Below are positions 48,880 to 62,702 of a DNA stretch of 64,000 nucleotides, piece by piece. Within the stretch, counting starts at the first letter, position 1, and each line of letters begins with the position of its first letter. Under the pieces are notes generated by a model. That model made no database searches and was not told the origin of the DNA. It saw only the letters and a list, made by a program, of their open reading frames with translations. This stretch comes from Lachnospiraceae bacterium (lineage in GTDB: Bacteria > Bacillota_A > Clostridia > Lachnospirales > Lachnospiraceae), in assembly GCA_017464645.1 (NCBI GenBank), contig JAFTZF010000024.1:38939-102938 (forward strand). The letters are read 5' to 3'. Position numbers and translations under genes: made by a program.

Positions 48880-49719
48880 ATGAGCAAAAAAATTACCGCA
48901 GAAGATCTGACCGCTTTTCAGACCTATTTAATTGAAGACGAAAAAAGCAATGCCACTCTCGAAAAATACATGCGGGATATCCGTCATTTTATACTTTACA
49001 ATGCAGGACGCCCTATCGACAAATTGCTCCTGCTTGAGTACAAATCCACATTAGAAAAAGAGTATGCCATAACAAGCGCCAACTCTATGCTGGCAGCACT
49101 CAATGCCTTTTTGCGGTTCATGGGCTGGCATGAACTATGCATCAAACAATTCCGCGTGCAAAAGCCAGTATATTGCCCGGAAGAAAAAGAACTTACCAAA
49201 GCCGAATATATCCGCCTTGTAGAAACCGCCAGAAGGACAGGAAATGAAAAGTTGTATTTTATTTTGCAGACCATTTGCAGCACCGGTATCCGGGTCAGTG
49301 AACTGCAGCACATTACCGTGGAGTCTCTAAAAAGCGGGAAAGCCATCGTCCAATGCAAGGGCAAGACCCGGGTCATCTTCCTGGTGCGGGATCTGCAAAA
49401 AAAACTGCTTGGCTACACCAGACAGCAGGGTATCAAAAGCGGCCCCATCTTTATTACCCGGCACAAAAAGCCAGTTAACCGCAGCTGTATCTGGCGGGAT
49501 ATGAAGGCCTTATGCAAACAAGCCCATGTTGCCCCCGGCAAAGTATTTCCTCACAATCTCAGGCATCTGTTTGCACGGATCTTTTATCAACAGGAAAAAG
49601 ACATTTCCAAACTGGCTGATGTTTTAGGACATTCCAGCATCAATACCACCCGCATCTATATCATTTCCACAGGAAAAGAGCATTGCCGATACATGGAGAG
49701 TATGCAGTTGATCATATAA
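48880..49719 (+). CDS. tyrosine recombinase / site-specific integrase
   Basis: 279 residues. N-terminal core-binding SAM-like domain (about 5-85), catalytic domain with Arg138 in STGIRVSEL, Lys in the beta-hairpin KGKTRVIFL, His225-x-x-Arg228 in PHNLRHLF, His251 in LGHSSINTT and nucleophile Tyr260 in TRIYI. All catalytic residues are present. No phage or conjugation genes are near. Its stop codon is 30 bp from the left inverted repeat of a 195-bp segment, so it is the obvious candidate to invert it, as RecV-like and Fim-type recombinases do. Confidence 0.93.
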   Translation: MSKKITAEDLTAFQTYLIEDEKSNATLEKYMRDIRHFILYNAGRPIDKLLLLEYKSTLEKEYAITSANSMLAALNAFLRFMGWHELCIKQFRVQKPVYCPEEKELTKAEYIRLVETARRTGNEKLYFILQTICSTGIRVSELQHITVESLKSGKAIVQCKGKTRVIFLVRDLQKKLLGYTRQQGIKSGPIFITRHKKPVNRSCIWRDMKALCKQAHVAPGKVFPHNLRHLFARIFYQQEKDISKLADVLGHSSINTTRIYIISTGKEHCRYMESMQLII

Positions 49720-49747
49720 AAAGCCGATGCAGAAGCACCGGCAAAAA
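49718..49747 (-). terminator. terminator facing the invertible segment
   Basis: On the minus strand GCCGGTGC and GCATCGGC form a stem with one mismatch around TTCT, followed by TTTTTAT. It would stop transcripts leaving the segment leftwards, just before they enter the recombinase gene antisense. A transcript from the minus promoter at 49813-49841 would be about 85-90 nt. Confidence 0.65.
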
Positions 49748-49807
49748 TCACATAATAAGCGTTATGTTGCAAAACAGCAAAATGTATACGCTAAATCCAA
49801 ATTCAGA

Positions 49808-49835
49808 TTGACATTGTATCATATTTCTACATAAT
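49808..49835 (+). promoter_or_regulatory. rightward promoter inside the invertible segment
   Basis: TTGACA (49808-49813), 16-bp spacer, CATAAT (49830-49835). In the orientation given it points to the 3' end of the sensor kinase gene, i.e. antisense to it. Confidence 0.7.
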
Positions 49836-49841
49836 TTGCAA
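49813..49841 (-). promoter_or_regulatory. leftward promoter inside the invertible segment
   Basis: Minus strand TTGCAA (49836-49841), 17-bp spacer, TACAAT (49813-49818). It overlaps the rightward promoter almost exactly, so the two should compete. It points to the terminator at 49718-49747. Confidence 0.6.
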
Positions 49842-49950
49842 GCAGGCAAATGATATTTTAGAAGGATTACATCTTCAGATACCACAACGAAGGATGAAAC
49901 TGCAGTTTGTAAGAACCTCTTTTGCAACATAACGCTTATTATGTTGCAGC

Positions 49951-49979
49951 CCCAGGAAACAGAACCTTTTGTCCTGGGA
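49951..49979. other. hairpin between the invertible segment and the kinase gene
   Basis: CCCAGGA (49951-49957) pairs with TCCTGGG (49973-49979) around a 15-nt loop. It follows the kinase stop codon by 12 bp but has no T run on either strand; it may end or stabilise transcripts from either side. Confidence 0.5.
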
Positions 49980-49990
49980 ATTCTCTGCTG

Positions 49991-51259
49991 TTACAGAACA
50001 ACGCGAAGAACAAAAACATTGTTTTGCACACTGAACTGGCAGTTCCCTCCCAGGCGTTCTGCCATATAACGAATGCTTTGGGTTCCATACCCATGCCCTC
50101 GTCTGTCGGATGTGGGTAATCCATCCACAAATACTGGCTTTTTCCCAAAGGGGTTCTTCACAGACAGGAGCAGCTTTCCGTTTGAATTCTTCAGCATGAA
50201 CACGATTCTGCGTTCTGCTGCCGGCAGTTCCTTCTGGGCATTCAATGCATTATCCAGTGCATTGGAAATAATGGAAGAAAAAATGATCTCATCTGTAGTG
50301 AGCGCTTCCACTTCTACCGTAGCTGCAAAATCAGTGTGCCACTCCCGGCATTTTGACTCAAAGTTACTGAGAATGTAGTTAACAGTATCATTTTCACAAT
50401 AGCGCTTTAAAGAGACTGATTCTACCTGGGCCCGGAAACCGGAGATCATTTTGAGAGAATTCTCCTTGTCTCCCTGCTCAATACTGAATGCAAGATTTTC
50501 CAGCAGCAGGCGCATATCATGACGGAGCAGCCTGGTCTCAAGTTCACTTTTCTTAATTGCCTGAATTTCCTTTTCCTGCTGCTCCATGGTGATCCGGATG
50601 ATCTGCTCCTTTCGCTCTGCCGCTACCTGTTTCTCATGTTCTTTGTAATAAATGACACAAAAAGCCAAATAAACGATGCACAAAAAGAACGGCAAAAATT
50701 CAACTGCAGTCCGGTTGTTATGAAGCCAGAATTCCGTATAGATTCCCATGGTATAATCAAATCCGTAGTAAATGATGGGGACCATGGAGAAGATCAGGAC
50801 GCTGCGCGTATCTTTATTATATATCTCAGAAATATACGCAGACAGACGGCTCAATACCAAGATACCCACGATCAGCAACGTAACGATCCGCGTAAGCTGA
50901 TTGACCGTATAACTCTCCGTAAGGGTTTCCATCAACAGTCCAAACCACTTCGCTGGCTGACAGCACAGATATGCGGAGCATACTGCTGCAAGTGCCGTCA
51001 CAATCCGCTTACGATATCCAAGGCACAGCAAAAGAACAGTCGGAAGATGTGTAATGAAAGGATACAGCTTCCATACGACTGTTTCACTGAAAGCTATATA
51101 GGAAAAGACTTGCAACATACCGCATACCACAAAAAGTACCAGCACACTGACTACGTTCTTTTTTGAGAACTGCACTCCCGCAAAAGCTACAGACAGCAGG
51201 ATTCCAAACAAAAGAATCATTGTGTAATGGTTAAAAAACAGAACGGTGTCAAGCATCAC
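49991..51259 (-). CDS. GHKL sensor histidine kinase (AgrC/LytS-like)
   Basis: 422 residues. Six or seven membrane helices (1-200), a coiled coil, then the GHKL kinase: phosphoacceptor His in LRHDMRLLLENLAF, N-box IISNALDNALNAQKE and G-box RRGHGYGTQSIRYMAERL. The long helical sensor without an extracellular domain is AgrC-like, but no AgrB/AgrD is present, so the signal is unknown. The start codon overlaps the regulator stop (ATGA). Confidence 0.92.
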   Translation of the reverse strand: MMLDTVLFFNHYTMILLFGILLSVAFAGVQFSKKNVVSVLVLFVVCGMLQVFSYIAFSETVVWKLYPFITHLPTVLLLCLGYRKRIVTALAAVCSAYLCCQPAKWFGLLMETLTESYTVNQLTRIVTLLIVGILVLSRLSAYISEIYNKDTRSVLIFSMVPIIYYGFDYTMGIYTEFWLHNNRTAVEFLPFFLCIVYLAFCVIYYKEHEKQVAAERKEQIIRITMEQQEKEIQAIKKSELETRLLRHDMRLLLENLAFSIEQGDKENSLKMISGFRAQVESVSLKRYCENDTVNYILSNFESKCREWHTDFAATVEVEALTTDEIIFSSIISNALDNALNAQKELPAAERRIVFMLKNSNGKLLLSVKNPFGKKPVFVDGLPTSDRRGHGYGTQSIRYMAERLGGNCQFSVQNNVFVLRVVL

Positions 51260-51978
51260 GGGTCACCTGCTTTCCCAAATATTGCCGAAAAATAGGCTGT
51301 CTCAAACTCCTTTTGGCACCTACGGGAAATAGGCACCCTTTGTCCTGATCTCATAATGATTTCTTTCTGAAAATACGTATCGATATGATAGAAATTAACG
51401 ATATAACTGCGATGGCATTTGAAAAATCCATCTTCCGGGAAAAGTTTGTCCTCAAAAGAATACAGAGGATTTATGGATTCTATGGTCTTTCCGCCGGATA
51501 ATACAAACAACACATGTTTATTCTGGGCTTCGATGTACTCGATGGTGGACATCTCCACACGATGTATGGCATCTGTGCTCCTCACCACAATACATCGGAC
51601 TTCCTTTCGAATGTCGGAGACCAATTCCTCCAGACATTCAAACAGTTTTTCGGGACTTACCGGTTTCAGTAAATAGTTACTGGCCCTGACTGTATAGGAG
51701 TCCACGGCAAAATCAACAGATGAGGTAAGAAAAACGATCTTAACTGTTTTATCGTACTCTCGTATCTCCCTGGCCGTCTCGATCCCATTCAGCAAGGGCA
51801 TGACCACATCCAGAAGAATAATATCCAAAGGTTGGTCCGCATGTGACCGAAGCAGCGCATCCCCGTCTTCGAACAGCTCCGTAGCAATATCTTGCGGTCC
51901 GTCATCCCAATGGTCGATCATGAACTTTGTTTGATGCAAAAATGTTGCAGAATCATCACAAATACCAATTCTAATCAT
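51256..51978 (-). CDS. LytTR-family response regulator
   Basis: 240 residues. Receiver domain (1-120) with CDDSATFL, phosphorylated Asp in IILLDVVMP, FLTSS and YLLKPV; LytTR DNA-binding domain (about 135-235) with STIEYIEAQNKHVLFVLSG and FFKCHRSYIVNF. LytTR regulators bind pairs of 9-bp direct repeats; such repeats are found just upstream (52031-52081). Likely controls itself and the divergent SipW operon. Confidence 0.94.
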   Translation of the reverse strand: MIRIGICDDSATFLHQTKFMIDHWDDGPQDIATELFEDGDALLRSHADQPLDIILLDVVMPLLNGIETAREIREYDKTVKIVFLTSSVDFAVDSYTVRASNYLLKPVSPEKLFECLEELVSDIRKEVRCIVVRSTDAIHRVEMSTIEYIEAQNKHVLFVLSGGKTIESINPLYSFEDKLFPEDGFFKCHRSYIVNFYHIDTYFQKEIIMRSGQRVPISRRCQKEFETAYFSAIFGKAGDP

Positions 51979-52039: not shown

Positions 52040-52081
52040 TGATATCGACCGACCGTTCACACCCTAAAAGCTGTAATTCAC
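52031..52081 (+). promoter_or_regulatory. LytTR-type operator: direct repeats at 21-bp period
   Basis: ACAGTTCAA (52031-52039) and ACCGTTCAC (52052-52060) each match the AgrA/LytTR 9-bp consensus at eight positions and are separated by 12 bp; a third, weaker copy GTAATTCAC (52073-52081) follows at the same 21-bp step. All lie on one face of the helix and are oriented towards the SipW operon. Confidence 0.75.
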
Positions 52082-52197
52082 TCCTGCATCAGAAGAATGT
52101 GCACTTTTTTTGGTACCATGGGGCTGGTTAGAATTGGGTGGTTATACCTGCAAATAAAAATCGTAGATTTTTCTACGGGAAAACGAGGTACATATTC

Positions 52198-52869
52198 ATG
52201 GCAAAAGAAAGAACTTCCACAACACACAAGATTCTTACAGCAGTCGGAACCGTGCTGTGCATTATTCTCCTTCCGATTCTGTTGATCAACCTTTCACTGA
52301 TCATTAAGAGCTATACAAACCAGGAGGAAGTTCCCAGTGTCGGCGGCTATCTGCCTCTGATCGTGCTGACCGATTCTATGTATCCTGAGATCAAAAGCGG
52401 AGACCTGATCATCTGCCATACTGCAGAGGCCGAAGAGATTCAGAAAAAAGATGTGATCGCCTTTTTTGACCCTGCCGGAAACGGAACGACTATCGTGACC
52501 CACCGTGTTGTTGAAATCGTAGAAGAAAACGGCGAGCTGCTCTTCCGCACTGGGGGGGACAACAATAATACTGCGGATAAGGATCTGGTTCCCGCAGACA
52601 ACCTGGTAGGCATCTATCGAACCCGGATTCCCGGTGCCGGTAATATTGCCATGTTCATGCAGTCCACCACCGGCCTCATCCTCTGCGTTGTCCTCCCTAT
52701 CATTCTACTGGTGGCCTACGATGTGATCCGCCGCCGGATCTATGAAAAGAACAAGCAGAATGAAAACGCCGCTCTACTTGCGGAGCTGGCGGCTCTGCGG
52801 GCGGAAAAAGCAGAAAAAGAAAAGGCTGCCGCCGCTGCCGATACAGGCAAAGGCAACGGTGCTTCTTAA
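52198..52869 (+). CDS. sipW: signal peptidase I, ER/SipW type (first copy)
   Basis: Likely processes the SipW-type leaders in this operon. 223 residues from ATG 52198 (GAGGT upstream; the frame starts earlier but has no site). Membrane helix (about 13-37), catalytic Ser in LTDSMYPEIKSGDLII, and catalytic His instead of Lys in TIVTHRVVEIVEENG, the archaeal/ER form; LLFRTGGDNNNTADKDLV follows; second membrane helix (about 160-180) and a charged Ala/Glu/Lys coiled tail. A 6-bp hairpin (CGTAGA/TCTACG, 52162-52177) sits in the leader. Confidence 0.92.
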   Translation: MAKERTSTTHKILTAVGTVLCIILLPILLINLSLIIKSYTNQEEVPSVGGYLPLIVLTDSMYPEIKSGDLIICHTAEAEEIQKKDVIAFFDPAGNGTTIVTHRVVEIVEENGELLFRTGGDNNNTADKDLVPADNLVGIYRTRIPGAGNIAMFMQSTTGLILCVVLPIILLVAYDVIRRRIYEKNKQNENAALLAELAALRAEKAEKEKAAAAADTGKGNGAS

Positions 52870-57119: not shown

Positions 57120-60100
57120 ATGAAGAGAACTTTTTTTCTTAAATTCTTTTGCACACTCTCTTTAGCTCTTTTTCTGCTCTTTACTCTCCGATTCTCGTTT
57201 TCCTTCGCAGCAGACGGTACTCCTGCCGTTTCCATTGAAAACAACGGATCCCGGCTGGCGGCACAAACGGAAAATATCCAATCTCCTGTATATCAGTGGC
57301 AGACTGCTGATGCAGCCGACGGCACTTATACGGATATTTTAGGCGCCACCGGAAAATATTATGACATCACCGCTGATGATGAAGGAACTTATATACGGTT
57401 GCTTGTCAATGGACTCACCAGTGAGCCTGTGGGCCCCATAGGAAAATTGATAACCCTTGATATTGGCCAAGGCGCAATTACCTTGGGTGCAAATTACAAC
57501 GGCAAAGACTCAAACGGCAATGCAGTTTCGGGTGTTCACGAGGCGACTAACCTGTATGTGATTGTTCATAGCACCAAAGAAACTAAGACGACAAACAACA
57601 TTTCTTTTACAGGCAATATAACGGATAAGCCCTTTGACGTAACTCTTTCCGGTGTAAATATGGGGGCAACTCCCACCAATCACACTCAGCAGCCAGGCTC
57701 TAGTGGAAGCCAAACACCTACCAGTGGGCAAATTAATATCCCAGCAACCCAATCAGCCAACAAAAATGTTACCTTGCGACTAAAGGGCGAAAATATTGTT
57801 CGATATATTCAATACTACAATGGCGGCGACAGCAGTTCTCCGATCACGGTTTCGTCGTCTTTAAAAATCACAGATATAAACGGTGACGGTGCGGCAGATA
57901 GCTCTCTTTATGTGCCTGTCAAACTTTCTGCCGAAGAGATTGACGACTTTGTAAAAACCAACACAAATTACAATCACTGGAATGCCGGCATCGGAGGCAT
58001 AGACAGCAACTCTCTTGTTCAGAATTTACATATTGCAGGGGGGAAAATACAAGTTGTAACAACTTTAGGCGACAACTGTACTGCAATCGGAGCAGGCGGC
58101 AACGGTTACTGTCAGATGGAAATCTCCGGCGGCGAGGTAATTGCGCATTGTAATGGTACAGGTGCTGCGATTGGCGGCGGTATCGGCTGGAACGCCGCAG
58201 GCGGTACATCAAATGTTTTGATTTCAGGTGGTAAGATTTATGCAAAAAACCACGCAATGATCCAAAGCGGCGATGAACTCGTAGGCGGTGTTGCCATTGG
58301 TTCAGGAAGTTCTTTCCATAAAGCAGGGAGCGAAGGCAAGGTAACGATCACCGGTGGTTATGTTGAGGCTTATGGCACCTTCGGAAACGGTATTGGCGGA
58401 GGCAATAGTTCCAGCAGTACCGGCGGTCAGGCCACCGTTTCTATCTCCGGCGGTCAGGTAACTGCCACTTCCATCGGTGGTGGTAACAGTAAAAAGGGTG
58501 CGGGCGGGGCCGCTACTGTTACGGTCAGTGGAACAGCTGATGTTACATTAAATGGCGGTATCGGCGGCGGTGACAGCGAGTCCGGTGACGGTGGAGCGGC
58601 TACCATCACAGTAACCGGCGGGTCTCTTCAGTGTGGAGGCGTAATCGGCGGCGGCAACGGCGGCGACAACGGTAACGGCGGTACTGCTGCCATCCATGTA
58701 AGTAACGGAAAACTCACTTCTCAATCTGTGGGCGGCGGCATCGGCGGTACCTCTGGAAACGGCGGCAGTGCACAGATTACCATTTCCGGGGGAACCATAG
58801 AAACCGGTTCTATTGGCGGTGGTGATACATTAAACCCGAGCGGAAACCTGGGATATGCAAAAGCTGATATCAGCGGCGGTGACATTATCGGGCAGTTTAT
58901 TATGGCTACGGGAGGTACAGAACCTTGTACCTTTACCATGACCGGCGGCACTTTGCATGATGTGAATACTGCAGATACTTCAAAATACAACTATGTTCAA
59001 AAAAACGGTGCGGCTGTTTATATGGACGATCCCAATGGTATCGCAACACTCTCCGGTGGAACGATTTTGAATTGTTCTGCCCAAAATGGTGGCGCAGTTT
59101 ATATGACAGCAGGTAAATTTATGATTTTAGGCACCGGTTCCATAGCCAATTGCACGGCTGAACAGATTGGCGGAGCCCTTTATCTGGGTGGAGGCACCCT
59201 GACTGTAGAGGGCGGAAGCATCAAATCCAATCAGGCCATTGATGGCGGCGGTGTTTACCTGGGTGGCGGCATCATGACCGTCACTGCCGGCGAAATTACC
59301 AATAACACTGCTTCCGGCAACGGCGGCGGAGCTTTTGTAGATGGCGGTAACGTTGTCGTTAACGGCGGAACCATCTCTTATAATACTGCAACCAATTACG
59401 GCGGGGGCATCACCGTAAACAATGGTAATTATACTATGACCGGCGGCAACGTTGACGGCAACAAGTCTCTTTCTGCTTCCGGCGGCGGCATTTACGTTTC
59501 TGCCAATGCTTCCGATGTTACCGTTGATATTTTCAGCGGTTCTGTAAGTCAGAACTCCGCCAAATTGAGCGGAGGTGCTCTGGCTGTCGTAGGTAAAGCA
59601 AACGGAACGGAAAATATCAATGTTACTATTGGTGTAAACGAAAAGCATTACGACTCAGAGGGAAATCCAATTCCTTGTGAACATGGATCTGCCACTGCCC
59701 TCTCCTGTCCTGTTATCCAAAACAACTCTGCCGAAGCAAGCGGCGGTGCTATCTTTGTTACCGGAAACGAAAAGACTGCTTTGAATCTTTACTGTCTGCA
59801 GGAATCCGGCAGTCAGGTTACTGACGGTGACTCCCAAAGCAATTTTATGAAAATGGAAGGCGGCAAAGTGTTGATCACCACTTCATTAGAACAAGATGAA
59901 GCCTGGCAGACCTCCATGTACGGTAACACCACGATTGAAAATACCATCTATGTAACGGGTGGCCAGATGGATGTATGGGGCAAAATGACCAATCCCCGTA
60001 TTTCTGAAATTATTACTGTAGATGTAGAAAAGGAAGGGGATTACTTCAAAGATCATCGTGATGTATTTATGTATTACAAATTACATTATTACGAAAACTT

Positions 60101-62702
60101 TACTGACCAGTTTACACATATAACAACCGGACAGTACAAGTCGCAAGAAATCACCAAAGACGAATTTGTAACCATCAGCGGCAACATCTACAGTCACCCC
60201 GGTTACAATATCGTTGGATGGAATACGGATCCGGATGGAAATCACAACTATCCTGTGGGGTCTGATCCGAAAAACCCTTCCCATGGTTGGTATGATGTAG
60301 GTAAATCTTATCTGTTTGACGGTAACCCCATCGGTGACTTGGTGATCTATGCTATTTGGGAAGCTAACGGATACACCGTTGTTTACGATCCCAATATCCC
60401 TGCAGGTATAACTTATACCGGCGCCATGGAAACTCAGATTTTTACTTATGATCTGCCGATTCAGTTGAGTAAAAACCAGTATGGTTATCCCGGATATAAA
60501 TTTATAGGCTGGTGCAGACAGTCAGATGGTTCTGGTGAAATTTACACAGATCAGCAGCTCGTGACCAATCTGACGTCAGAAAAGGGCGAGGTCGTGACCC
60601 TCTATGCCCAGTGGACTCCCTGCACACATACACCAGAAGACCATGTATATACATACTCCGTTATTGATGACGGAAACACCTTAAAACGAGAATGTTCCTG
60701 CAAAGGCTACAGTGAGACGGCTGCTCTCTCTGCTTCAAGCCGAGCCTACAATCAACTGCCACTGGCTGCCAAAGTGACGTATTCTTCCGCTTGGCAACCG
60801 GAGATCGTTTATAAAAAGGGAGAAGCAATTCTTGAGGAAGCCCCCATTTTTGCAGGGACCTATACTGCTTCTGTCTCTGAAGGCGGTAAAACTGCCAGTG
60901 TAACCTATACTATAGAAAAATCGGTGCAGCCGGCACCGGAAAAACCCATTGTATATAGTGCTGTTATCGATTCTCTCAACGGCGCTTCCACACTGAATGT
61001 CTACCCGGCAGCAGATTCTCCTTTAAGAGGAACGGATCCTTCCTATGACAGTACAACTCAATATCAAATTGTTTACTATGTGGGAGAGACCCGAAAAGAG
61101 ACCGAATGGAAAAACGGAGAAAAACTGGAGGGCGGTTTTGCCGCTTCCTTTGTGTTGGATGTGGCTTTGACCAATTATTACATCTATGCCCGCTATTCCG
61201 AAGGCACCAACTATAAAGCCTCTCCCACCACCGCTGCAGACAGTGTATATTTCTTTGCCGGCGATGTGAATGTCCATGTCTCCTGTGGAGATGGTGTTTT
61301 CTATGACCTTGTGGTGGCGGATGGCAATGAGGATCAGGTAAATGGTATCGCCCTTACCATTAAAGCAGAGGATGGCTACTACTTCCCGAAGGATTATCAA
61401 ATTCAGGTTGACACGGTAGAAGCGGATGGAAAACAAGCCGTTCTGACTGAAAAAGAGACCTTTTCCAAATATCAGCTGGATTCCATCCCCAAGAATTGTG
61501 ATATTTATATCACAATTCCGGATGCCGCAAAGATTCCTACTATGGACGTGAAACTTGCAGAAAAGCAGATCTTTGATAAGATCACAACCACGGCTGCAAC
61601 CATTAGTCATGATTCTTCCTTTACCATCTGTTTCCACGTTCAGAATTATGACCCCACTGCATATGCCGCCCTGGTATTGGATTTTAATTACCCGCTTCCA
61701 CAGGATACCACATTAATTCTACAGAATCGAACCAATGGAAAGTACTATTGGACTTTGATCACAACGCCCACTACACAGATTTCTCTGAGCCAGTTTGTGC
61801 GTATGGGAACAGCGGACGAAGTGTTTTCTCCCACCAAAGGTGAGCTGGAATTGCAGTTTATTATAGACTTCTCTGAAACTGCAAACGGAATTTCCCAAGA
61901 GACACTGAACACAACACTAACAGCGTATGAAACAACCGGTTCCCGGGCGCCTCAAGTGTCTCATGACGGAACTACCAATCTCAAGAATATCGGCAGTTTC
62001 TCTTTTATGACACAGGGCGACCAACTGACCCAAGCCGTGACTTGTACTTATACTCCGTCTCAAGGCGCAACCTCCAAATGGGACAATCGCAAAGGTTCTC
62101 TGGTACTCATTCCGCTTACAGATCTGCCTGCAGATGCCCGGGTGATCTATACCACCGGAAACTACACAACTGTATTTTATCAGAATAGCAAGGGGTATTT
62201 TATCCTTCCCTTATCCGTATCCGACAGTGACGTTTTGAATCTAACACTGGCTTCTGACCTGTTTCCTTCTATCGTCACAGATTACGAATTTACTATTAAA
62301 TGGCTGATGTCAGAATCTATTGCAGCCGTTGCGCCCATGAACGGAGAACTTCTGGCGGAGACCACCATGATTTTCACAAACGAGATCCTAAAATCTCCTG
62401 CTTTAAAAATTACCAGCGACAAGCGGCTCTACTCTGGCAATGAAACCATGCTGGCTTCCGTTTCCTGGGCAAACATCCCCACTTATTGTGACATGGAAGT
62501 CACCTTGATGCGTCGAAGCGATACCGGAGTATATACCAACACCGGTTGGAGTACCGAGGTGGAAGCAATCGGCTCTAGTTCCTGTGAGCTGCCTGTCACA
62601 CTGGCCGGCCAGAGCCCCGGCAGCTACTGTCTGCAGATTGCCGTTATGGACGGTTTGATCAAAATAAAGGAATTAAACTTTTATTTTATCATTGAAAAGT
62701 AA
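57120..62702 (+). CDS. 1860-residue surface adhesin: beta-helix plus InlB-type repeats
   Basis: Signal peptide (about 1-31). Ig-like region (about 50-105; VYQWQTADAADGTYTDILGAT). Long Gly/Asn-rich right-handed beta-helix (about 290-890) built from ISGG-x-I/IGGG-type rungs, first GGGN-rich, then MTGG..NGGGVYL units as in polymorphic-outer-membrane-protein-like helices. Two InlB/Listeria-Bacteroides repeats (about 985-1162; GYNIVGWNTDPDG, GYKFIGWCRQSDG ... VTLYAQW). Bacterial Ig/MBG-like domains (about 1170-1400) and a beta-rich C-terminus. No LPXTG, SLH or C-terminal helix, so it is not covalently anchored by itself. Last gene of the SipW operon. Confidence 0.85.
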   Translation: MKRTFFLKFFCTLSLALFLLFTLRFSFSFAADGTPAVSIENNGSRLAAQTENIQSPVYQWQTADAADGTYTDILGATGKYYDITADDEGTYIRLLVNGLTSEPVGPIGKLITLDIGQGAITLGANYNGKDSNGNAVSGVHEATNLYVIVHSTKETKTTNNISFTGNITDKPFDVTLSGVNMGATPTNHTQQPGSSGSQTPTSGQINIPATQSANKNVTLRLKGENIVRYIQYYNGGDSSSPITVSSSLKITDINGDGAADSSLYVPVKLSAEEIDDFVKTNTNYNHWNAGIGGIDSNSLVQNLHIAGGKIQVVTTLGDNCTAIGAGGNGYCQMEISGGEVIAHCNGTGAAIGGGIGWNAAGGTSNVLISGGKIYAKNHAMIQSGDELVGGVAIGSGSSFHKAGSEGKVTITGGYVEAYGTFGNGIGGGNSSSSTGGQATVSISGGQVTATSIGGGNSKKGAGGAATVTVSGTADVTLNGGIGGGDSESGDGGAATITVTGGSLQCGGVIGGGNGGDNGNGGTAAIHVSNGKLTSQSVGGGIGGTSGNGGSAQITISGGTIETGSIGGGDTLNPSGNLGYAKADISGGDIIGQFIMATGGTEPCTFTMTGGTLHDVNTADTSKYNYVQKNGAAVYMDDPNGIATLSGGTILNCSAQNGGAVYMTAGKFMILGTGSIANCTAEQIGGALYLGGGTLTVEGGSIKSNQAIDGGGVYLGGGIMTVTAGEITNNTASGNGGGAFVDGGNVVVNGGTISYNTATNYGGGITVNNGNYTMTGGNVDGNKSLSASGGGIYVSANASDVTVDIFSGSVSQNSAKLSGGALAVVGKANGTENINVTIGVNEKHYDSEGNPIPCEHGSATALSCPVIQNNSAEASGGAIFVTGNEKTALNLYCLQESGSQVTDGDSQSNFMKMEGGKVLITTSLEQDEAWQTSMYGNTTIENTIYVTGGQMDVWGKMTNPRISEIITVDVEKEGDYFKDHRDVFMYYKLHYYENFTDQFTHITTGQYKSQEITKDEFVTISGNIYSHPGYNIVGWNTDPDGNHNYPVGSDPKNPSHGWYDVGKSYLFDGNPIGDLVIYAIWEANGYTVVYDPNIPAGITYTGAMETQIFTYDLPIQLSKNQYGYPGYKFIGWCRQSDGSGEIYTDQQLVTNLTSEKGEVVTLYAQWTPCTHTPEDHVYTYSVIDDGNTLKRECSCKGYSETAALSASSRAYNQLPLAAKVTYSSAWQPEIVYKKGEAILEEAPIFAGTYTASVSEGGKTASVTYTIEKSVQPAPEKPIVYSAVIDSLNGASTLNVYPAADSPLRGTDPSYDSTTQYQIVYYVGETRKETEWKNGEKLEGGFAASFVLDVALTNYYIYARYSEGTNYKASPTTAADSVYFFAGDVNVHVSCGDGVFYDLVVADGNEDQVNGIALTIKAEDGYYFPKDYQIQVDTVEADGKQAVLTEKETFSKYQLDSIPKNCDIYITIPDAAKIPTMDVKLAEKQIFDKITTTAATISHDSSFTICFHVQNYDPTAYAALVLDFNYPLPQDTTLILQNRTNGKYYWTLITTPTTQISLSQFVRMGTADEVFSPTKGELELQFIIDFSETANGISQETLNTTLTAYETTGSRAPQVSHDGTTNLKNIGSFSFMTQGDQLTQAVTCTYTPSQGATSKWDNRKGSLVLIPLTDLPADARVIYTTGNYTTVFYQNSKGYFILPLSVSDSDVLNLTLASDLFPSIVTDYEFTIKWLMSESIAAVAPMNGELLAETTMIFTNEILKSPALKITSDKRLYSGNETMLASVSWANIPTYCDMEVTLMRRSDTGVYTNTGWSTEVEAIGSSSCELPVTLAGQSPGSYCLQIAVMDGLIKIKELNFYFIIEK

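Follow-up and report, generated by a model that had tools for sequence, protein, structure and literature searches.

A putative self-contained invertible-promoter module between a tyrosine recombinase gene and a LytTR/SipW locus in a Lachnospiraceae bacterium

The window analyzed here, i.e. the whole stretch of 64,000 nucleotides from contig JAFTZF010000024.1 of a Lachnospiraceae bacterium, harbors a candidate invertible segment of 145 bp (49775-49919) between a left inverted repeat (49750-49774, plus strand) and a right inverted repeat (49920-49944, minus strand). Upstream lies a gene for a tyrosine recombinase of 279 aa (48880-49719, plus strand; PF00589, PF02899), the presumed cognate enzyme of the switch, and a predicted intrinsic terminator for leftward transcripts (49723-49742, minus strand) sits between the recombinase stop and the left repeat. 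Convergent to the recombinase, a GHKL-domain sensor kinase gene (49991-51259, minus strand; PF14501, 48.3 bits) ends 46 nt from the right repeat, and a LytTR response regulator gene (51256-51978, minus strand; PF04397, PF00072) lies beyond it. The next gene encodes a SipW-like signal peptidase (52198-52869, plus strand) and is the first of a SipW/TasA-type operon. Its open reading frame was listed from 52138, and the start at 52198 was picked for an RBS-like GAGG; the protein scores 107.6 bits with TIGR02228, above cut-off, and 107.4 bits with NF046067, below the cut-off of 190. The operon ends with an ORF of 1,860 residues (57120-62702), and similarly placed ORFs in three related loci (L177, L215 and L217) are large too, with 883-1,594 residues, some being truncated by the limits of the sequence read.

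The recombinase gene is intact as claimed in an earlier note on this DNA, with a complete open frame whose stop lies 30 nt before the left repeat. The protein matches PF00589 with 84.9 bits and PF02899 with 26.3 bits, and residues R138, K162, H225, R228, H251 and Y260, to which we assign the catalytic roles, are invariant in a 28-row alignment. An adjoining intact tyrosine recombinase with presumed catalytic residues, as looked for in an inverton, is thus present in the window. The top NCBIfam models are XerA-, XerD- and XerC-type, all under their cut-offs; of the proteins with solved structures, a XerC-like recombinase (4a8e) and XerA (5hxy) match best in sequence. A protein search returned 7,997 matches, equal to all 7,997 scored candidates; among the 120 matches listed, one is 99% identical (P0001) and the others are 62-70% identical. 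Among 299 genomes sampled from the family to which [Clostridium] symbiosum belongs, 59 have relatives at E <= 1e-60, as do 47 of 197 sampled from a second family. No near copy was found among plasmid records (three weak matches, 68-72% identity) or phage records (70 records, all below 60% identity).

The perfect 25-bp inverted pair around 145 bp was re-found in the letters, and if extended it comprises 28 nt at 96%. The spacers reported before are likewise exact, TAAGCG at 49756-49761 and CGCTTA at 49933-49938. They are part of a left core ACATAA-TAAGCG-TTATGT at 49750-49767 and of a full palindromic right site TGCAACATAA-CGCTTA-TTATGTTGCA at 49923-49948. Arms of 10 bp had been claimed for both ends; this holds for the right site, whose arms are perfect, but not for the left site, where only 6 bp (ACATAA/TTATGT) are perfect and the arms diverge outside them. 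The exact core ACATAA-N6-TTATGT occurs at just two places in the 64-kb window, the left and the right site. The window repeats are beyond chance, because inverted repeats of at least 17 bp were found in none of 109 shuffled downstream regions and because the core is unique to the two sites. With 25-bp perfect repeats and 145 bp between them, the locus has the short inverted repeats of an inverton, and with core arms, a matching non-palindromic spacer and a position adjoining the recombinase 3' end it has the marks of the family described below. A 17-nt stretch within the kinase gene (51110-51126) matches the repeat at 88%, which is probably chance, or possibly a decoy half-site. No Rfam match was found in the window at the gathering threshold.

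A family survey covered 127 distinct recombinases, each with 240 residues or more and counting the one of the window. The set is non-random, in that the best match per genome was favored and extra copies were taken from chosen multi-copy genomes. Inverted repeats of at least 17 bp were searched up to 600 nt downstream of the 109 recombinases with at least 500 nt of downstream sequence. The earlier note had held that repeats missing where the recombinase is present would speak against a switch. They are mostly kept: a repeat pair lies behind 90 of the 109 recombinases (window included), compared with 0/109 in shuffled sequences and 3/106 on the upstream side, and is missing behind 19, in eight of which a looser search, used with no null control, found a site pair. 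By this comparison, the putative switch of the window is one of many in a recombinase family of gut Clostridia. Eight family members are present in [Clostridium] symbiosum ATCC 14940 (G007; L008, L010, L013 and L129-L133) and eight in Clostridium transplantifaecale (G008; L009, L011, L014, L134 and L138-L141), several of them ahead of capsule-type operons as judged by ORF appearance. Among IMG/VR viral contigs, 9 of 16 relatives carry a site pair behind the recombinase (L194, L196-L201, L203 and L209, with L196 and L198 identical); the predicted module does occur in predicted prophages or viruses. One genome (G161) holds paralogous recombinases (L107-L113) without a clear repeat pair, and three of these loci (L108, L110 and L111) show degenerate sites, CCCCATAA-N6-TTATGCGG, perhaps a group of diverged specificity.

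The sites share a family core, CNACATAA-N6-TTATGTNG, and in the 88 of 90 modules with agreeing spacers the consensus is C-N-ACATAA-N6-TTATGT-N-G. Across these 88 modules the hexamer arms carry 1.4-2.0 bits of information and the central four spacer positions 0.03-0.07 bit; the first spacer position is mostly T and the last mostly A, and none of the 71 different spacers is palindromic. Since the repeat search itself favors equal spacers, the spacer match was retested by the arms alone, allowing one mismatch, within 800 nt downstream. Here 78 of 109 modules had at least two cores, seven had one and 24 had none, and any core at all appeared in 1/109 shuffled sequences. In the 78 modules the first and last spacers were inverted-identical in 76 cases, direct-identical in one and neither in one. 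Arm differences track recombinase differences (Mantel rho 0.40, p 0.002), whereas spacer differences do not (Mantel rho 0.01, p 0.42). This pattern is what strand exchange in a 6-nt overlap by an enzyme reading the arms would predict. Selection for distinct spacers within a genome is not claimed, as distinctness is expected by chance; a spacer is shared in 2/78 within-genome pairs versus 11/3,616 between-genome pairs (recombinases more than 30% different). One locus (L159) has three tandem cores per side, at +77, +111, +145 and at +445, +479, +513 behind the recombinase, and a third core is present in L008-L011, L183, L114 and L117; such extra cores could permit alternative inversion ends or the deletion of short pieces.

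Sigma-A-like promoters had also been claimed for the segment. Hexamers are indeed present on both strands and overlap, but their consensus count is not above chance (10 matches in a 4.5-kb region versus 8.4 +/- 2.8 in shuffles). One is a predicted outward promoter on the minus strand (49813-49841), TTGCAA-N17-TACAAT with a TGn motif, which lies 38 nt from the left repeat and points toward the recombinase. The other, a promoter-like pair TTGACA-N16-CATAAT on the plus strand (49808-49835), overlaps the former, lies 84 nt from the right repeat and is off the family's position rule. That rule comes from a position-limited scan of 92 segments (the 90 modules plus one segment each from L223 and L224) for an outward sigma-A-type promoter ending 10-60 nt from a repeat, with the 95% level set by pooled shuffled segments. 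An outward promoter was predicted toward the recombinase in 53 segments, toward the operon in 10, on both sides in four and on neither in 25; it is close to a repeat in 67/92 segments and usually faces the recombinase, as in the window. High-scoring promoters mostly lie 20-50 nt from the repeat, mostly have a 17-nt spacer and often a TGn. The window segment scores 11.8 toward the recombinase (pooled 99% null 10.59), as against 4.9 in the other direction. By this promoter rule, most classifiable assemblies, the window included, would be in the resting form, and yet the strong plus-strand pair means that the direction of effect could be reversed in the window. A whole-segment scan of 91 segments (62 toward the recombinase, 11 toward the operon, 18 unclear) was superseded by the position-limited one; the two scans show the same bias with differing calls for single modules.

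The leftward terminator (49742-49723) consists of a hairpin followed by a T run, the 32-nt stretch folding at -15.2 kcal/mol (z -5.96). A leftward terminator is found in the gap of 26/90 modules versus 5/90 shuffled ones. Of these 26 terminators, 21 belong to the 26 modules ranked highest by profile score and five to the other 64, a cut that was chosen after inspecting the table. A rightward terminator was found in 0/90 gaps and also in 0/90 shuffles, which leaves the one-sidedness unproven. The leftward terminator likely halts the predicted transcript of the resting form before an antisense run into the recombinase gene. Inside the window segment no terminator was found on either strand in the present orientation. 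An internal terminator of the OFF state was tried as a family rule and rejected: one facing the operon occurs in 10/62 classified segments, one with the promoter in 5/62, and one in 1/62 shuffled segments. Such a predicted terminator is perhaps real in some members; it is not general and was not found in the window.

The earlier note had proposed to compare orientation in related genomes. Opposite orientations do exist in the family (7 of the 60 segment alignments listed, the other 53 having the same orientation), but the window segment itself aligned with no other family segment. The segment of L190 is opposite to those of L188, L181, L012, L086 and L052 (122-170 nt, 70-72%), and weaker opposite alignments link L004 with L181 (34 nt) and L106 with L131 (59 nt); L190 and L004 are also promoter-to-operon forms in the position-limited scan. 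In the genome assemblies, contigs end within 500 nt of the recombinase on the downstream side in 18/127 cases and on the upstream side in 2/127, an excess that could reflect mixed orientations in the sequenced population. The ends of viral contigs were dropped as a sign of flipping; 4/16 loci break off 3-6 nt past the matched sequence, and provirus trimming at gene borders may create such ends.

Taken together, repeats, spacers, orientations, promoters and arm covariation across the family strongly support the central claim of the earlier note, a tyrosine-recombinase inversion switch. Judged from sequence, the locus is very probably a self-contained, cis-acting invertible-promoter module, and we infer inversion as well as promoter and terminator activity in the organism of the window. 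In the proposed mechanism the recombinase would bind both sites downstream of its own gene at their conserved arms, and strands would be exchanged in the 6-nt spacer, for which the spacers of both sites must match. Given inverted sites and a non-palindromic spacer, the product would be an inversion. In the orientation of the window, the resting form, the promoter would fire leftward at the recombinase and yield a transcript of about 85-90 nt that stops at 49742-49723. After inversion it would face right, where in most relatives a co-directional operon would be transcribed.

Among 89 modules, 72 have a co-directional first ORF behind the switch, 13 have one in the opposite direction and four have none within 900 nt. 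The 13 include at least two miscounts, L005 and L016, where a co-directional ORF for SipW starts within the segment. The scan for matches covered 67 of 85 first ORFs, leaving out 13 on the opposite strand, four very short ones and one with masked letters. At E <= 0.001 the commonest matches among these 67 are signal peptidase/SipW (7-9) and capsule CpsB/CapC (7), and c-di-GMP phosphodiesterase models match up to 3/67. The window is an opposite case: the gene placed for a flipped promoter that an inverton calls for is lacking, and SipW lies 2.2 kb beyond, which lowers the claim to an ordinary target and not the claim to an inversion module. A convergent two-component neighbor is unusual and is real as anatomy.

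Both halves of this neighborhood are found separately in other genomes. L215 and L177 have a LytTR regulator and kinase divergent from SipW1, a TasA-like gene and SipW2, with no recombinase beside them. L015 has recombinase and switch, an ORF of 237 residues and then a related SipW operon (SipW1 55%, SipW2 49%), and no LytTR match was found at that locus. The window combines the switch as in L015 with the LytTR/SipW arrangement as in L215 and L177, and recombinase, switch, convergent kinase and SipW were found together in no other sampled genome. Kinase matches at E <= 1e-110 came from 2/299, 1/3, 1/1 and 3/397 genomes (overlapping draws). In another family, 12/250 genomes gave kinase matches at E <= 1e-40, with 28-34% identity; SipW was matched at E <= 1e-55 in 4/348 genomes. 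In L216 a distant LytTR pair (23-25% identity) runs in the same direction as SipW, in L217 SipW stands without LytTR pair or switch, and in L176 the LytTR pair is present and no SipW was found within the 14 kb covered. The genome of L215 (G802) contains two modules elsewhere (L223 and L224), and in L224 (7390-9199) the switch lies directly ahead of a different SipW-like gene. In the gap between regulator and SipW of the window, TTCAC occurs twice at a 21-bp interval (52056-52081), a spacing which, we presume, resembles that of LytTR regulator binding sites. A hairpin just ahead of the SipW ribosome-binding site (52162-52177) is terminator-like on the minus strand only.

Since the next gene is convergent, the outward transcript of the window after inversion would be antisense, running rightward across the genes of the LytTR kinase and regulator and continuing, unless stopped, 2.2 kb on into the SipW/TasA-type operon. 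It is possible that the switch alters LytTR/SipW transcription in this way; that the LytTR/SipW locus is the working target is no more than a guess, whose chances we put slightly short of even. Between switch and SipW, the terminator scan found a single weak rightward hairpin (50215-50227), rightward promoter-like sites lie only within the kinase and regulator genes (50957-50984 and 51330-51357), and the scan found none in the 0.8 kb ahead of SipW. The scarcity of rightward hairpins and promoters would favor read-through to SipW. Against it, the run is 2 kb long and untranslated, and Rho could stop the transcript. A phase-variable excludon, in which one transcript of the flipped state would silence the LytTR pair by antisense and also read into the SipW/TasA-type operon, is a speculative scenario that we consider rather doubtful. 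If true, random inversion would swap sensed control of a biofilm-type operon for constitutive expression, and the excludon would join arrangements that stand apart in relatives, switch and SipW in L015 and a LytTR pair divergent from SipW in L215 and L177.

The same neighborhood also admits an orphaned switch that still inverts while its original target has been displaced, so that flipping would give a stray antisense transcript and no regulation. L215 and L177, which keep LytTR and SipW without a recombinase, indicate that the locus does not need a switch, and the co-directional first ORF typical of the family (72/89 modules) is missing here. On the other hand, the switch of L015 precedes a related SipW operon with one ORF of 237 residues between, and the rank of SipW/signal peptidase as commonest first-gene match (7-9/67) makes it unlikely that the nearness of SipW is pure accident. 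All in all, we regard orphaning as possible and still unlikely.

Less credit is due to a switchable 3' end of the kinase operon, a clearly improbable scenario in which the leftward kinase transcript would cross the segment to 49742-49723 and orientation would change the stability of the kinase mRNA or cause a collision with the outward promoter. From the kinase stop as far as the left repeat the scan found no terminator for leftward transcripts, 49742-49723 being the first, and the hairpin at 49946-49990 has no T run, all of which would suit a kinase transcript of this kind. A leftward terminator at the same place in modules with a non-kinase downstream ORF nonetheless suggests that it belongs to the module. 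A static feature, with the repeats acting as a hairpin or as protein-binding sites and no inversion, is very improbable: most related segments do share one orientation (53/60), but spacers that are free and yet match pairwise, the covariation of arms and enzyme and the opposite orientations in some relatives all speak against it. A small mobile element, with the repeats as its ends or attachment sites and the recombinase as its integrase, is hardly credible. The enzyme does belong to the integrase superfamily, and 9/16 viral-contig relatives (two of the nine identical) carry the site pair, but both sites in the 90 modules lie behind the recombinase, about 145-390 nt apart and spacer-paired, by a search of the downstream side with an upstream control of 3/106, so that the gene is not bracketed.

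The invertible-promoter module thus favored has to be compared with known switches. In the fim switch of E. coli the promoter lies inside the invertible segment, where one is predicted in the window as well. Recombinases are encoded next to the switch, two (FimB and FimE) in fim and one in the window, which has other sites and comes from another organism. A report on cwpV of C. difficile (PMC2784873) also mentions the fim switch. The earlier note had likened the segment to cwpV of C. difficile and its RecV-type enzyme. The excerpted parts of the cwpV and RecV reports (PMC2784873, PMC5903667) bear out a likeness in the short segment, in the use of a site-specific tyrosine recombinase and in the occurrence in Clostridia: the cwpV switch has 195 bp between imperfect 21-bp repeats, with about 5% of cells ON (PMC2784873), and RecV is termed a tyrosine recombinase that serves several switches (PMC5903667). 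The likeness fails in recombinase placement, promoter location and OFF-state terminator. According to the same excerpts, recV and cwpV lie apart, cwpV has its promoter beyond the segment that inverts, and the OFF state is proposed to depend on an intrinsic terminator within the OFF transcript (PMC2784873), whereas the window has its recombinase 30 nt away, a predicted promoter inside and no terminator found in the segment. On the passages from that source, the switch of the window is not of the cwpV type, having an adjoining recombinase and a predicted internal promoter.

Excerpts of the hCom2 study (PMC11892184, Microbiome 2025) describe an inverton group 139 with an invertase group 35, comprising 33 invertons, 32 of them from Clostridia and nearly all near a tyrosine-type recombinase/integrase. 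Two examples named there have 26-nt repeats 205 nt apart and 14-nt repeats 227 nt apart, and their orientation ratios shift in reads; the organisms concerned include Clostridium sp. D5 and Intestinimonas butyriciproducens (PMC11892184). The family of the window resembles group 139 in size, in Clostridia and in the nearby tyrosine-type recombinase, and is probably the same group, judging by the excerpted description (PMC11892184). Spacer pairing, promoter placement, terminator and LytTR neighbor go beyond what these excerpts describe for group 139 (PMC11892184). Among switches beside signal transduction genes, excerpted text on C. difficile describes a two-component system beside an invertible site with on/off expression of the gene (PMC5903667), and CmrRST of C. 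difficile (PMC8844915, PMC6837544) likewise has an inversion switch beside a signal-transduction system, the arrangement predicted for the window. In the window, by contrast with the C. difficile gene turned on and off (PMC5903667), the pair is convergent and any effect would be antisense. A search of CC-licensed PMC literature by titles and the starts of abstracts found neither this site nor a SipW operon under an inversion switch.

Our analysis therefore files the locus with the invertons. The module would work as known invertible promoters do, and its family is described here more closely than group 139 is in the excerpts. The comparison yields a rule set by which such switches may be read from bare sequence: a recombinase, arms that differ from enzyme to enzyme, a spacer that is free but pairs the two sites and, in many cases, a promoter lying a fixed distance from one repeat. 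An assembly alone could then predict the state of a switch and the operon it serves (capsule, SipW/TasA or c-di-GMP enzymes). The family also offers many candidate pairs of recombinase and site, and with at least eight copies in single genomes a spacer-coded separation of switches becomes testable. The copy in the window, finally, provides a test case for antisense action of a switch on a two-component system.
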